Part shown: positions 7,836 to 13,270 of the stretch, piece after piece
Layout: every line of letters begins with the position of its first letter
Numbering within the stretch: position 1 is the stretch's first letter
Assembly: GCA_021372785.1 (NCBI GenBank)
Contig: JAJFTT010000051.1
Span: forward strand, 1 to 34,955
Length of the DNA: 34,955 bases
From: Negativicutes bacterium
GTDB taxonomy: Bacteria; Bacillota; JAAYKD01
Reading direction: 5' to 3'
The notes under the pieces: model-generated
Seen by the model: the letters and a program-made list of their open reading frames with translations, nothing else
What the model was told of the DNA's origin: nothing
The model's database searches: none
Position numbers and translations under genes: made by a program

Positions 7836-8987
7836 TTAATTGCCTTTGAATTTATCCTTCATCTTATCGAAAAAGCTTTTCCCGGCAGATAAAACCGCTT
7901 CGTCCCCCATCGCCTGGGCAAATTGATACAAAGCTTCTTTTTGCTTATCGTTCAGCTTACGAGGGATGTCCACCTTAATCTGCACCTGCATGTCGCCTCT
8001 GCCATACCCGGTGAGAGAGGGGAAACCTTTGTCGCGTAAACGGAAGAAGGTATTCGGCTCTGTCCCTTCCGGTATCTTCAGAGTAGCCATCCCTTCCAAA
8101 GTCGGTGTTTTGATCTCGCCGCCCAGTACTGCTTGGGCAAAGCTGATCGTAGCTTCACTGATCAGATCGTCGCCTTTACGGGAGAAGTATTTGTGCGGCG
8201 TTACGGTGATCACGACATACAAATCACCGTTGGGTCCGCCTTTTTCGCCCGGTTCACCTTCTCCATTCAAGCGCAGCCGTCTGCCGTTTTCAATCCCGGC
8301 CGGTACTTTCACTTTAACAGGACGGCGACGGCGGGCTTTCCCGCTGCCCTTACAATTGATGCAAGGTTCCTTGATCACTTTGCCGGTGCCGCCGCAATGG
8401 CTGCAGGTCCTGACGCTCATCATATTGCCCAGCATCGTCCTCTGTACCGTTTGCACTTGTCCGCTGCCTTTGCAGACAGGACAGGTTTCAACCTGAGAAC
8501 CCGGCTTGGCACCGCTGCCGCCGCAGGTGGGACAATTTTCTTCCCGCTGCACCTGAACTTCTTTTTCCACGCCAAAATAACTTTCTTCAAAAGAAATGGT
8601 CAGATTGATGCGCAAGTCATTGCCCTTGACAGGACCGTTACGCTGAGCGCTGCCGCGTCCACCCATACCACCGGAGAAAAACGTATCGAAAATATCACTG
8701 ATATCACCGAAGCCACTGCCGCTAAACCCGCCGCCGGGAGCGCCGCCCATATTTTGTTCCTGATCAAAGGCCGCATGACCGTATTGATCGTAAAGCGCGC
8801 GTTTCTGACTATCGGAAAGCACATCATAGGCTTCTTTAACTTCTTTAAATTTTTCCGCCGTATTGGGATCATCAGGATTGGCATCCGGGTGCAGCTCCCG
8901 AGCCAGTTTGCGATAGGCTTTTTTAATTGCCGCCTCATCAGCACTTTTATCAATGCCCAGCAGCTCATAATAATCTCGTTTTGCCAT
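7836..8987 (-). CDS. dnaJ: chaperone protein DnaJ (Hsp40)
   Basis: A 383-residue class A J-protein that delivers substrates to DnaK and stimulates its ATPase. The J domain (residues 1-70) has His33-Pro34-Asp35 ([10 protein letters not shown]). A Gly/Phe-rich linker follows ([15 protein letters not shown]). The zinc-binding region has all four CxxCxGxG repeats: [24 protein letters not shown] and CINCKGSG. The C-terminal substrate-binding domain is full length. The ATG at 8987 follows GAGG. It is the last gene of the hrcA-grpE-dnaK-dnaJ operon and is separated from dnaK by a 10-bp-stem hairpin. Confidence 0.97.
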
Positions 8988-9061: not shown

Positions 9062-10909
9062 TTAGTGCTTCGGGTTCTTCGGATCATCTTCATCCACAAC
9101 ATACTCGGCATCCACTACATTTTCATCCGTATCGGTACTATTCTGATTCGGTGCCTGTCCGCCGGCTGCCTGAGAAGCCTGCTGTTGCTCGTAGACTTTG
9201 GAAGAAAGTTTATAGAGATGTTCGGTCAGTTCCTCGGAAGCTTTCTTAATTGCTTCTGCATCACTGCCCTTCAACGCGTCTTTCACCTTTTGAACAGCTG
9301 TTTCCGCTTCGGCTTTTTCGGCAGCAGAAACCTTATCACCCAAGTCTTTCAAGGTTTTTTCGGTTTGATAAACCTGATTGTCGGCTTGATTGCGAATTTC
9401 AATTTCTTCCTTGCGCGCTTTATCTTCGTTGGCATGCAATTCTGCTTCTTTGATCATCTTATCGATCTGATCCTTGGAAAGATTCGTGGTAGCGGTAATT
9501 GTAATATGCTGTTCTTTGCCGGTCCCCTGGTCTTTGGCTTTGACATTGACAATGCCGTTGGCATCAATATCAAAGGTCACTTCAATCTTGGGTACACCGC
9601 GGGGCGCGGCTAAAATACCGTCCAGCATGAAACGCCCCAGTGTGGTATTACCGGCAGCCATTTCACGTTCTCCTTGCAGAATATGGATTTCCACAGAGGT
9701 TTGGCCATCGGCAGCCGTCGAAAAAATCTGAGTCTTGGAGGTTGGGATCGTGGTATTACGGTCAATCAAGCGAGTAAAGACACCACCCAGCGTTTCTAAG
9801 CCCAACGAAAGCGGAGTCACATCCAGCAATACCATCCCTTTGACTTCGCCGGCCAAGACGCCGGCCTGGATAGCCGCACCTTCGGCGACTGCCTCATCGG
9901 GATTTACGCCTTTAAAGGGTTCTTTGCCTAAGGCTTTGCGAACGGCTTCCTGCACTGCGGGGGTACGGGTCGAACCGCCAACCAAAATCACTTTGTCAAT
10001 ATCGCTGTTGGATAATCCGGCATCTTTCATCGCCTGACGGGTCGGTCCCATGGTTTTTTCGACTAAATCTTCGGTCAGGGCATCAAATTTAGCCCGGGTC
10101 AGCGTCAAATCCAAATGTTTCGGACCAGTCGCATCGGCTGTAATGAAAGGCAGGTTGATATTCGCCGATACAATACCGGACAATTCAATTTTGGCTTTTT
10201 CAGCCGCTTCTTTTAAACGCTGCAAAGCAGAACGATCTTTGGACAGATCAATGCCGCTGGTTTTTTTGAATTCAGCAACCATCCATTCCACTATACGTTG
10301 ATCAAAGTCGTCGCCGCCCAGACGGGTGTTGCCATTGGTCGCTTTGACTTCAACCAAACCTTCGCTGATCTCCAGAATGGAAACATCAAAGGTGCCGCCG
10401 CCTAAATCGAAGACCATGATGGTTTGATCGTTTTCCTTATCCAGACCGTAAGCGAGAGCCGCCGCGGTTGGTTCGTTGATAATCCGCATGACTTCCAAAC
10501 CGGCAATCGCGCCGGCGTCTTTGGTAGCCTGGCGTTGGGAGTCGTTAAAATAGGCGGGAACGGTAATCACCGCTTTGTCTACTTTTTCACCCAAGTAAGC
10601 TTCGGCGTCCTCTTTTAATTTACGCAGAATCATAGCGGAGATTTCCTGCGGGCTATAAATCTTGCCGTCGATATTTACCTTGAAATTGCTGCCCATCTCA
10701 CGTTTGATGGAACTGATCGTATGGTCCGCATTGGTAATAGCCTGCCGTTTGGCAATTTGACCAACCAGACGTTCATCGCCTTTGAAAGCGACGACAGAAG
10801 GCGTCAGGCGGCTGCCTTCCGCATTGGGGATGACAGTGGGCTGCCCGCCTTCCATGACTGCCACAACAGAATTGGTGGTTCCCAAATCGATACCGATAAT
10901 TCTACTCAT
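9062..10909 (-). CDS. dnaK: chaperone protein DnaK (Hsp70)
   Basis: A 615-residue Hsp70. The nucleotide-binding domain begins [15 protein letters not shown] and has [15 protein letters not shown], the phosphate-2 loop [12 protein letters not shown] and the adenosine motif LVGGSTRTP. The interdomain linker [11 protein letters not shown] precedes the substrate-binding beta domain, and the helical lid ends in a low-complexity Q/A/G-rich tail with an acidic end ([15 protein letters not shown]). A TTG two codons earlier could extend the frame to 10915, but the ATG at 10909 lies eight bases after GGAGTG and matches the family start. Heat-shock control comes from the CIRCE element upstream of hrcA. 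Confidence 0.97.
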
Positions 10910-10956
10910 GTTCAAAACACTCCATTTCGTTTCTTTATTTTTTCCTAAAGAGATAC

Positions 10957-11628
10957 TTATTTATGGGCAACCTGCACCATTGCGGCGCGGATTACTTTCT
11001 CTTTCATTTTATAGCCTTTCCGCAATACCATAGTGACCGTATTCTCTGCTATCCCTTCCGTTGCTTCACACTGCATCACGGCTTCATGCACATAGGGATC
11101 AAACAATTGACCGAGGGATTCAATTTCCTGCAACCCTTCTTTGGCCAGCACCTCCAGCAATTGACGGTGAATCATCTGCACGCCGGTTTTCAAACTATCA
11201 CAATGTTCGCCTTCCGGTAACGGTGCCGCCAAGGCACGCTCAAAATCATCCAAAATCGGTAAGAGAGCGCTTACTACCTTTACCGAGGCGTATTGACTCA
11301 AATCCTCCCGCTCTTTTTGGCTGCGGCGGCGGTAATTGTCAAAATCGGCCTGCAGTCTCAGGTTATAAGCCTCCAATTCTTTGACTTTTTCCGTATTGGT
11401 CAACAGCTGCTGCATTGCTTGCGCTGTCAGTACGATTGTTTCCTGCTCAGCTTTTGCTGATGTGTCTGTTTCTTCTGTCACTTCCTCAGCCTTCTCTGGC
11501 GTAGTTTCCGCTTGATTTTCTTCTGGCGTAATTTCCGTTTGGCTTTCTTCAGGCGTAATTTCCGCTTGGCTTTCTTCAGGATTTATGATGGCTTCTGTTT
11601 TCTTTTCTTCCTCCGTACTGTAAAACAT
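10957..11628 (-). CDS. grpE: nucleotide exchange factor GrpE
   Basis: A 223-residue cofactor that releases ADP from DnaK. The central long coiled-coil has [22 protein letters not shown], and the C-terminal beta domain has [12 protein letters not shown] and the signature [11 protein letters not shown] plus [18 protein letters not shown]. The N-terminus (residues 17-50) is an acidic tail made of nine-residue repeats of the type PEESQAEIT. The start is set at ATG 11628 ([10 protein letters not shown]), about ten bases after AAGGA. The frame is open a further 47 codons to 11769, and that extra part encodes a chaperonin C-terminus remnant rather than GrpE, so the long version is probably not native. 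An ATG at 11667 with AAGGAT upstream cannot be excluded. Confidence 0.93.
11500..11580 (-). repeat. three 27-bp tandem repeats inside grpE
   Basis: Three in-frame 27-base units encode [18 protein letters not shown] and PEENQAETT, followed by a degenerate fourth (PEKAEEVTE). They expand the disordered acidic N-terminal tail of GrpE. Copies differ at a few bases, so the expansion is not brand new. Confidence 0.8.
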
Positions 11629-11654: not shown

Positions 11655-12149
11655 TATTTTTTTGCTGCATTATGATATCAATCCTTGCTGCTGTGCCGGC
11701 ATTTTCTACAGATTGTGCCATGAGACGTTTCAGTACTTTAACCGGGCTGTCCAAGCCATCTGCCGGCATCCTTTTCCAGGTTGCTCCGCAGTTTCATACT
11801 CTCTCTGGCTGCCGGGACAATATTTTTTAAAATCTGTTGCTCCCTATTTTCCAACGGACAGCTGTATTGTTTGCTAGAGGGAATCGCTGCCTGACGCCAA
11901 AACGTGCTCCGCCGATCATTCGGTTGATGAAGACTCTCTTGAACAATTGTTCGGAATCCAGGCTGATCAAAGCGCCGGCAATCATCGCAGCATTTGTTGT
12001 ACCATCGCCGATTTCCTCCTGACGCGCTTTTGCCATATTGATCAATCAGCAGGCGGCAGGGTGTGTCACATATCCGTTTTCTCTAAAATGGTAACGCCGG
12101 CGGCATGGGATAATTTTTCTCCGTCTTCCCAGTCTGGTGTTATGGTTAC
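11655..12149 (-). pseudogene. remnant of a group II/III (archaeal-like) chaperonin between hrcA and grpE
   Basis: On the minus strand broken frames give, in order, AAGVTILEKTD, then a shift to PAAC, stop, LINMAKARQEEIGDGTTNAA, MIAGALI, a region of unclear frames, and finally GLDSPVKVLKRLMAQSVENA, GTAARIDIIM. In thermosome-type chaperonins the same order is NDGVTILxxMDxxHPAAxxLxxxAKxQxxEVGDGTT near residue 60-100 and xGxxxPxxVxxxAxxxAxxxAxxxxRIDDII at the C-terminus. Lesions include a TGA after EKTDM, a shift before PAA, a TGA after PAAC, and loss of most of the intermediate and apical domains: about 0.5 kb remains of an expected 1.5 kb or so. The E-I/V-G-D-G-T-T form and HPAA context fit group II/III better than GroEL. 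The C-terminal piece runs in frame into grpE. My recollection is that group III chaperonins of some Firmicutes lie in the dnaK operon. Confidence 0.75.
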
Positions 12150-12167: not shown

Positions 12168-13196
12168 TCAACCTTTGTTAAATACTTCCGATAATAATTT
12201 ACTGACTTCCCGCACAGCGGCTACCGCTCTGGCATAATCCATGCGAGTCGGTCCCAAGACGCCGACCCATCCCATCGGCTGACCGTTCCATTTATAGACC
12301 GCAGTGACTAAACTGCAGTTTTCTACTTCCTGTATTTGATTTTCCGAACCGATGGTGACCTGAACCTGATCGGTTTGCTGCAAATTCCCCAGCATATGCT
12401 TCATATACTCGCGATGATCCAGCAGTTGAAGTATACTGCGCACCTGTTTGATATCCTGAAATTCCGGCTGTCCCAACATCCTGGCAGCTCCACCCAGATA
12501 TAAATCACTCTGATGTTCACCCAGCAAAACCTGTTGAACCAAATCGAGGACCTGGTCAAATTGACTGATTTTCTGACTGACATCAACCCGCACCTGACTG
12601 ATCCCAGCTTCCAGCATTTGATTCCAAGTTACATTGTGAAACTTCTGATTGATATAGTTCGTGATATTGTCCAGGTCATTCTGATCGATATTCGGGGGCA
12701 GGCCGATCATGCGATTGGCCACCAGGCCATTCTCTGCGACCACCACGGCCAATGCCTGGCCGGATTGAATTTCGATCATTTGCAGTTTATTCAACCGGCT
12801 GGACTGCGGCTGCGGTCCGGAAGCAATCGCCATATAATCGGTCAGAGATGCCAGTAAATGTGCCGACTGCTGAATGACATTCTCCAGAACCTGAACCTGT
12901 TGTTGATAACTTTGGCGAATGGCTTTAATTTCCTCGGGAGAAACCGCCACCTCGTCCAGCAAATGATCGACATAAAAGCGATAACCGTTCTCCGAAGGGA
13001 TTCTTCCTGCGGAAGTATGCGGCTGCTGCAAAAAGCCCATCTCTTCCAAATCCGCCATTTCATTGCGGATGGTTGCGGCGCTGACATTAAAGATGTATCG
13101 TCTGGCAATCGTACGGGAACCTACAGGTTCCGCTGTCAGGATATAGTCACGAACAATTGCCTGCAGTATACGCTTCTTGCGTTCATCCAATTCCAT
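12168..13196 (-). CDS. hrcA: heat-inducible transcription repressor HrcA
   Basis: A 342-residue repressor that binds CIRCE and is kept active by the GroE chaperonin. The N-terminal winged helix includes RKKRILQAIVRDYILTAEPV, SAATIRNEMADLEEMGFL and the family motif QPHTSAGRIPSENGYRFYVD. The C-terminal dimerisation and GAF-like region ends VLGPTRMDYARAVAAV, also a family hallmark. The ATG at 13196 follows GAGGTGAGC. The gene is first in the operon; its operator, at 13244-13270, lies just upstream. Full length. Confidence 0.96.
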   Translation of the reverse strand: MELDERKKRILQAIVRDYILTAEPVGSRTIARRYIFNVSAATIRNEMADLEEMGFLQQPHTSAGRIPSENGYRFYVDHLLDEVAVSPEEIKAIRQSYQQQVQVLENVIQQSAHLLASLTDYMAIASGPQPQSSRLNKLQMIEIQSGQALAVVVAENGLVANRMIGLPPNIDQNDLDNITNYINQKFHNVTWNQMLEAGISQVRVDVSQKISQFDQVLDLVQQVLLGEHQSDLYLGGAARMLGQPEFQDIKQVRSILQLLDHREYMKHMLGNLQQTDQVQVTIGSENQIQEVENCSLVTAVYKWNGQPMGWVGVLGPTRMDYARAVAAVREVSKLLSEVFNKG

Positions 13197-13243: not shown

Positions 13244-13270
13244 TTAGCACTCTCAAGCATCGAGTGCTAA
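13244..13270. promoter_or_regulatory. CIRCE operator (HrcA binding site)
   Basis: A perfect consensus inverted repeat: TTAGCACTC (13244-13252), nine-base spacer, GAGTGCTAA (13262-13270). It begins eight bases downstream of the -10 box and overlaps the expected transcription start, so bound HrcA would block initiation. Confidence 0.97.

Follow-up and report, generated by a model that had tools for sequence, protein, structure and literature searches.

Decayed Group III chaperonin gene between hrcA and grpE in the dnaK operon of a Negativicutes bacterium

The window analysed here, a stretch of 34,955 nucleotides, corresponds to contig C51 of a draft genome of 2.10 Mb (74 contigs, 97.5% complete). 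It carries the genes of a dnaK operon, all on the minus strand. A CIRCE operator, the binding site of the HrcA repressor, is located upstream of hrcA at positions 13244-13270 (exact TTAGCACTC-N9-GAGTGCTAA; 0 exact matches are expected in shuffled sequences). It is followed by hrcA (12168-13196), which encodes an intact heat-shock repressor of 342 amino acids (PF01628, E = 3.3e-62), a spacer, and intact grpE (10957-11628), dnaK (9062-10915) and dnaJ (7836-8987) genes. The start of grpE is placed at ATG 11628, behind a GAAAGGA sequence. In the sole other genome of the family that was compared (G001), HrcA is 72% and DnaK 82% identical to the proteins of the window. Two further exact CIRCE cores are found in the genome. 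One lies on contig C24, upstream of an intact groEL gene, and the other on contig C2 (5117-5137, L191), away from both groEL and the dnaK operon.

The spacer between hrcA and grpE was described in the first-pass annotation as containing chaperonin blocks distributed over several frames, and three-frame translation of the minus strand recovered these motifs where they had been placed. AGVTILEKTD is encoded in one frame (12104-12072 region), THPAAC-stop-LINMAKARQEEIGDGTTNAAMIAGALISL... in another (12066-11893, with an in-frame TGA at 12048-12046), and MPADGLDSPVKVLKRLMAQSVENAG...RIDIIMQQK at 11769-11659. The recognisable chaperonin sequence extends over positions 11656-12122 of the minus strand. 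A whole-genome Pfam search found only two places matching PF00118: the intact GroEL on C24 and the spacer on C51 (11920-12069, minus strand, E = 2.9e-7, a match that contains one TGA). The proposed profile search gave a significant hit, and among the NCBIfam models those for thermosomes rank first. In tblastn searches with Group III proteins of relatives, E values down to 2e-16 were observed at the spacer. The best query was the G001 protein, with 57% identity over 61 amino acids together with a second block, and in addition a C-terminal block with 56% identity over 27 amino acids. A frame-aware local alignment of the spacer with the G001 chaperonin reached a score of 255, compared to 33.6 (sd 4.5, maximum 44) for 40 dinucleotide-preserving shuffles. 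When the best preserved stretch (block B, see below) was compared with natural PDB chains, the best match was 5x9u (E = 2e-11), which we take to be the Carboxydothermus Group III chaperonin, with Mm-cpn behind at about 2e-7. Crystal structures of the Carboxydothermus Group III chaperonin have been described (PMC5635000). The G001 protein itself scores under the curated NCBIfam thermosome cut-offs and far over the GroEL models, consistent with Group III.

To locate the lesions, the spacer was mapped onto the 520-codon open frame of the G001 chaperonin, whose codon numbers are used here. No recognisable chaperonin sequence was found in the spacer before about codon 50-57 in this alignment. Block A (12072-12122, minus strand; codons 57-73, GEKLSHAAGVTILEKTD) is identical at 11 of 17 positions. 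The frame shifts between 12072 and 12066, and the next stretch, block B (11893-12066, minus strand; codons 75-132), covers the ATP-site region with the GDGTT motif, with 34 of 58 residues identical, and is interrupted by the TGA. A further frame change near 11893 leads into a third frame at 11777-11893 (minus strand), which aligns weakly in two parts, block C down to 11819 (codons 133-157) and the short block C2 at 11818-11777 (codons 404-417). Within this stretch about 246 codons (158-403) are deleted, presumably the greater part of the intermediate and apical domains, as judged from the general architecture of chaperonins. Another frame change precedes block D (11695-11775, minus strand; codons 418-444, KRMPADGLDSPVKVLKRLMAQSVENAG; 15 of 27 identical). 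About 60 codons (445-504) are missing between block D and block E (11656-11685, minus strand), where comparison with G001 shows the C-terminal tail, RIDIIMQQK and neighbouring residues at about codons 505-515, with the tail pattern RID-II---K. Blocks A and D each scored above all of 5000 mononucleotide shuffles. RIDIIM of block E taken on its own gives p = 0.03. For the weakest stretches (11893-11777), significance is reached only in register, not singly. C, C2 and E are convincing by position only, and the C-terminal tail has probably been retained.

Taken together, the remnant has at least three frame changes, an in-frame TGA and three deletions (about codons 1-56, 158-403 and 445-504). About 500 bases are left of about 1560 in G001, corresponding to roughly a third of the gene; the pieces that remain lie in several frames, and no start is left. 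The earlier statement that the middle is lost is borne out by the deletion of codons 158-403, but the loss is wider: the N-terminus is missing too, and there are three deletions instead of one. The remnant has no full-length frame covering the equatorial, intermediate and apical/lid domains, and the regions for the nucleotide-sensing loop and the built-in lid are deleted or too decayed.

The remnant is decayed and not just divergent. Of the positions found to be near-invariant among 91 intact proteins, 14 of the 38 covered by the remnant are changed, compared to 1 of 134 in the G001 protein. G001 is the best match of the remnant, with 52% identity over the 140 retained residues. Genome pairs with a similar divergence of DnaK (79-85%) show 75% identity at the retained codons (minimum 57%), and pairs with a similar divergence of HrcA (67-77%) show 81% (minimum 69%). 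Disabling lesions are combined with a relaxed constraint relative to the intact orthologue. In block B, 42 of 72 nucleotide differences from G001 fall on third codon positions, a bias that would fit selection for some of the period after the two lineages separated. A working protein cannot be made from the remnant, and a lack of expression is to be expected. An assembly or sequencing error that breaks a gene intact in the cell might be considered, given that the genome is a draft of 74 contigs and that single frameshifts are known in such assemblies. However, one error cannot account for the several distinct frame changes, the stop, the three deletions and the substitutions at so many near-invariant sites, and the adjoining hrcA, grpE, dnaK and dnaJ are intact. 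We regard such an error as extremely improbable.

A decayed copy of GroEL (Group I) was weighed as another source of the spacer sequence. The GDGTT motif also occurs in GroEL, and the frame-aware score of the genome's own GroEL against the spacer, 53, exceeds GroEL's own shuffles. This value is nevertheless far below the 255 obtained with the Group III protein. The best matches are those to Group III and not those to GroEL. Sixteen GroEL queries gave a best E of 0.17 at the spacer in tblastn, compared to 2e-16 for Group III, and no GroEL model matched the remnant at E ≤ 0.01 in the NCBIfam search. The position is also that of Group III genes. A GroEL origin is ruled out by the score difference, and its probability is practically nil. 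It also seems very unlikely that the remnant is partly alive, with its last 45 or so codons extending the N-terminus of GrpE or with its transcript acting as a regulatory leader or spacer. A frame is open from 11793 into grpE with an ATG at 11769, so that the listed grpE ORF starting there reaches back into the remnant, and a promoter-like match is located at 11681-11653. On the other hand, ATG 11628 and its GAAAGGA ribosome-binding site correspond to G001, where the start codon is TTG. Because the grpE start is conserved, a fusion of GrpE with the remnant is unlikely, and promoter-like matches occur at chance number (4 versus 3.1). The spacer is, in our reading, almost certainly what is left of a once intact Group III chaperonin gene between hrcA and grpE that decayed in this lineage. 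The remnant is nearer to Group III proteins than to either GroEL or the archaeal thermosomes, its sequence is not that of a Group I chaperonin, and like the genes of relatives it lies in the dnaK operon between hrcA and grpE. On these sequence comparisons the spacer is confirmed to hold the pseudogene of a chaperonin of Group III, the archaeal-like type of bacteria.

Comparison of the hrcA-grpE gap in relatives, as the first-pass annotation had suggested, agreed with its reading. In G001, the nearest relative compared, the gene order is hrcA, intact chaperonin, grpE, dnaK and dnaJ. Its chaperonin (L011/L112) is the orthologue at the same locus. Unlike the remnant, it is full length with a single open frame and keeps 133 of 134 near-invariant residues. 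Among the 40 closest relatives compared, 14 more carry a chaperonin at this position; that of G018 is broken. Where the contig is long enough, the same arrangement is seen in Heliobacterium, Desulfofundulus, Pelotomaculum, Carboxydocella, Thermincola and others; as an exception, L088 has dnaJ instead of grpE next to the chaperonin. In G002 and G003, the other two members of the order that were compared, hrcA is directly followed by grpE and no chaperonin trace was found. No credible remnant was detected in the hrcA-grpE gaps of relatives without the gene; weak matches there came from only one query, whose open frame extends upstream across hrcA. What looked like an insert in L040/L197 is a run of N. 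The loci were collected with a self-composed Group III-like N-terminal query, and the later tests use sequences of actual genomes.

A tree of HrcA, DnaK and DnaJ places the genome of the window and G001 as sisters with full support (100). G002 and G003 join next (100), followed by G021, G065 and the JPNG genome (98), all of which have an intact gene. As the copy of G001 is intact and that of its sister is eroded, the gene was in the common ancestor and was lost on the branch leading to the genome of the window, in line with the earlier proposal that the ancestor had the gene and this lineage lost it. The gene was thus present in the ancestor of the family, and very likely in that of the order. 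The operon tree and the presence of the gene point to a clean loss in the family of G002 and G003 in addition to the erosion described here. Only two genomes of the family were compared, and the loss is therefore dated only coarsely. Over the whole operon tree at least 10 changes between presence and absence are needed. Taken alone, these changes do not tell gains from losses, whereas the scar gives the direction. The link between the remnant and G001 rests on best identity and synteny, since the branch of the remnant in trees is very long (4.5-5.1). Few branches are supported in the Group III tree built without the remnant, and this tree alone is no proof of vertical descent everywhere. The G001 protein is nearest to those of some genomes (G065, JPNG) that adjoin G001 in the operon tree. 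In the Group III tree, the branch of the G001 chaperonin (L112:6801-8360) is long, 1.06 compared to a median of 0.48. This perhaps reflects a relaxed constraint before the loss in the order, although its near-invariant residues are kept.

The Group III chaperonins of the dnaK operon were reportedly established in a founding paper by Techtmann and Robb in 2010. The first-pass annotation had mentioned them for a few Firmicutes, in the dnaK operon. Their place in the operon holds, but they are not few: a strong match (E < 1e-50) was found in 126 genomes out of a phylum sample of 399, about a third. An et al. (2017) counted 195 Group III chaperonins, located in the dnaK operon with one exception (PMC5635000). 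The remnant resembles these genes in family sequence, operon place and CIRCE/HrcA setting (PMC5635000), and differs from them in its reduced length, its several frames and its missing start.

Other broken copies were seen in the phylum sample. In G391 (L195:5620-6350), a deep Group III remnant lies between hrcA and grpE. Like the remnant of the window it was eroded in place, with the N-terminal part and the C-terminal tail kept and the middle deleted, and its N-terminal part carries a frame change. It belongs to a distant lineage in another family of the phylum and has other breakpoints, and represents an independent event. The chaperonin of G018 (L126:4345-5953) is in two open frames, split at an AT-repeat run (HIYIYIY) at about codon 349, which could reflect slippage, a switch, early decay or an error. 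In G341 (L199:4787-6310), a Group III chaperonin has one frame change near the C-terminus that may be early decay, slippage or a sequencing error. Both G018 and G341 are single-contig genomes. In G171 (L196:4327-5405), the chaperonin is interrupted near codon 46 by about 1.08 kb of non-chaperonin sequence, which contains a long open frame.

We propose that the ancestral gene was whole, stood between hrcA and grpE and was controlled by CIRCE/HrcA, and that selection on the chaperonin lapsed in the lineage of the window after the split from G001. The gene would then have acquired the frame changes, the stop and the three deletions. With the deletions it lost about two thirds of its length, namely the start region, the greater part of the intermediate and apical domains and the bulk of the C-terminal segment. 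Selection would have been maintained on the operator, on the flanking genes and on the ribosome-binding site of grpE. The homology, the decay, the intact orthologue in the relative and the intact flanks and GroEL are seen directly, whereas the timing and order of the lesions can only be suggested. Without a chaperonin product, the cell would rely on its intact GroEL and DnaK systems, and redundancy with these is presumably the reason for the loss. Both chaperonin types have been reported to be under HrcA regulation (PMC5904260). Given the CIRCE upstream of hrcA, the remnant presumably still forms part of the operon transcript, as an untranslated spacer.

The family and the locus are known, and the value of the finding is the scar, which gives direction to a patchy distribution. 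A limited literature search found no earlier report of such a scar. It is debated whether Group III chaperonins are a relic of an ancestral chaperonin or the result of a later transfer from archaea to Firmicutes (PMC5635000; PMC12696368). Both views must account for their patchiness. An eroded copy together with an intact orthologue in a sister lineage can tell gain from loss, which presence and absence on a tree cannot. The scar shows that the patchy presence of Group III chaperonins among these bacteria is at least partly due to loss. We are inclined to think, with some reserve, that they were lost repeatedly in place across the phylum and that much of the patchiness is loss from ancestors with the gene in the dnaK operon, with scars such as those of the window and of G391 giving the direction. 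The lineage also provides a natural experiment in which the capacities of GroEL and DnaK can be observed in the absence of the Group III machine.
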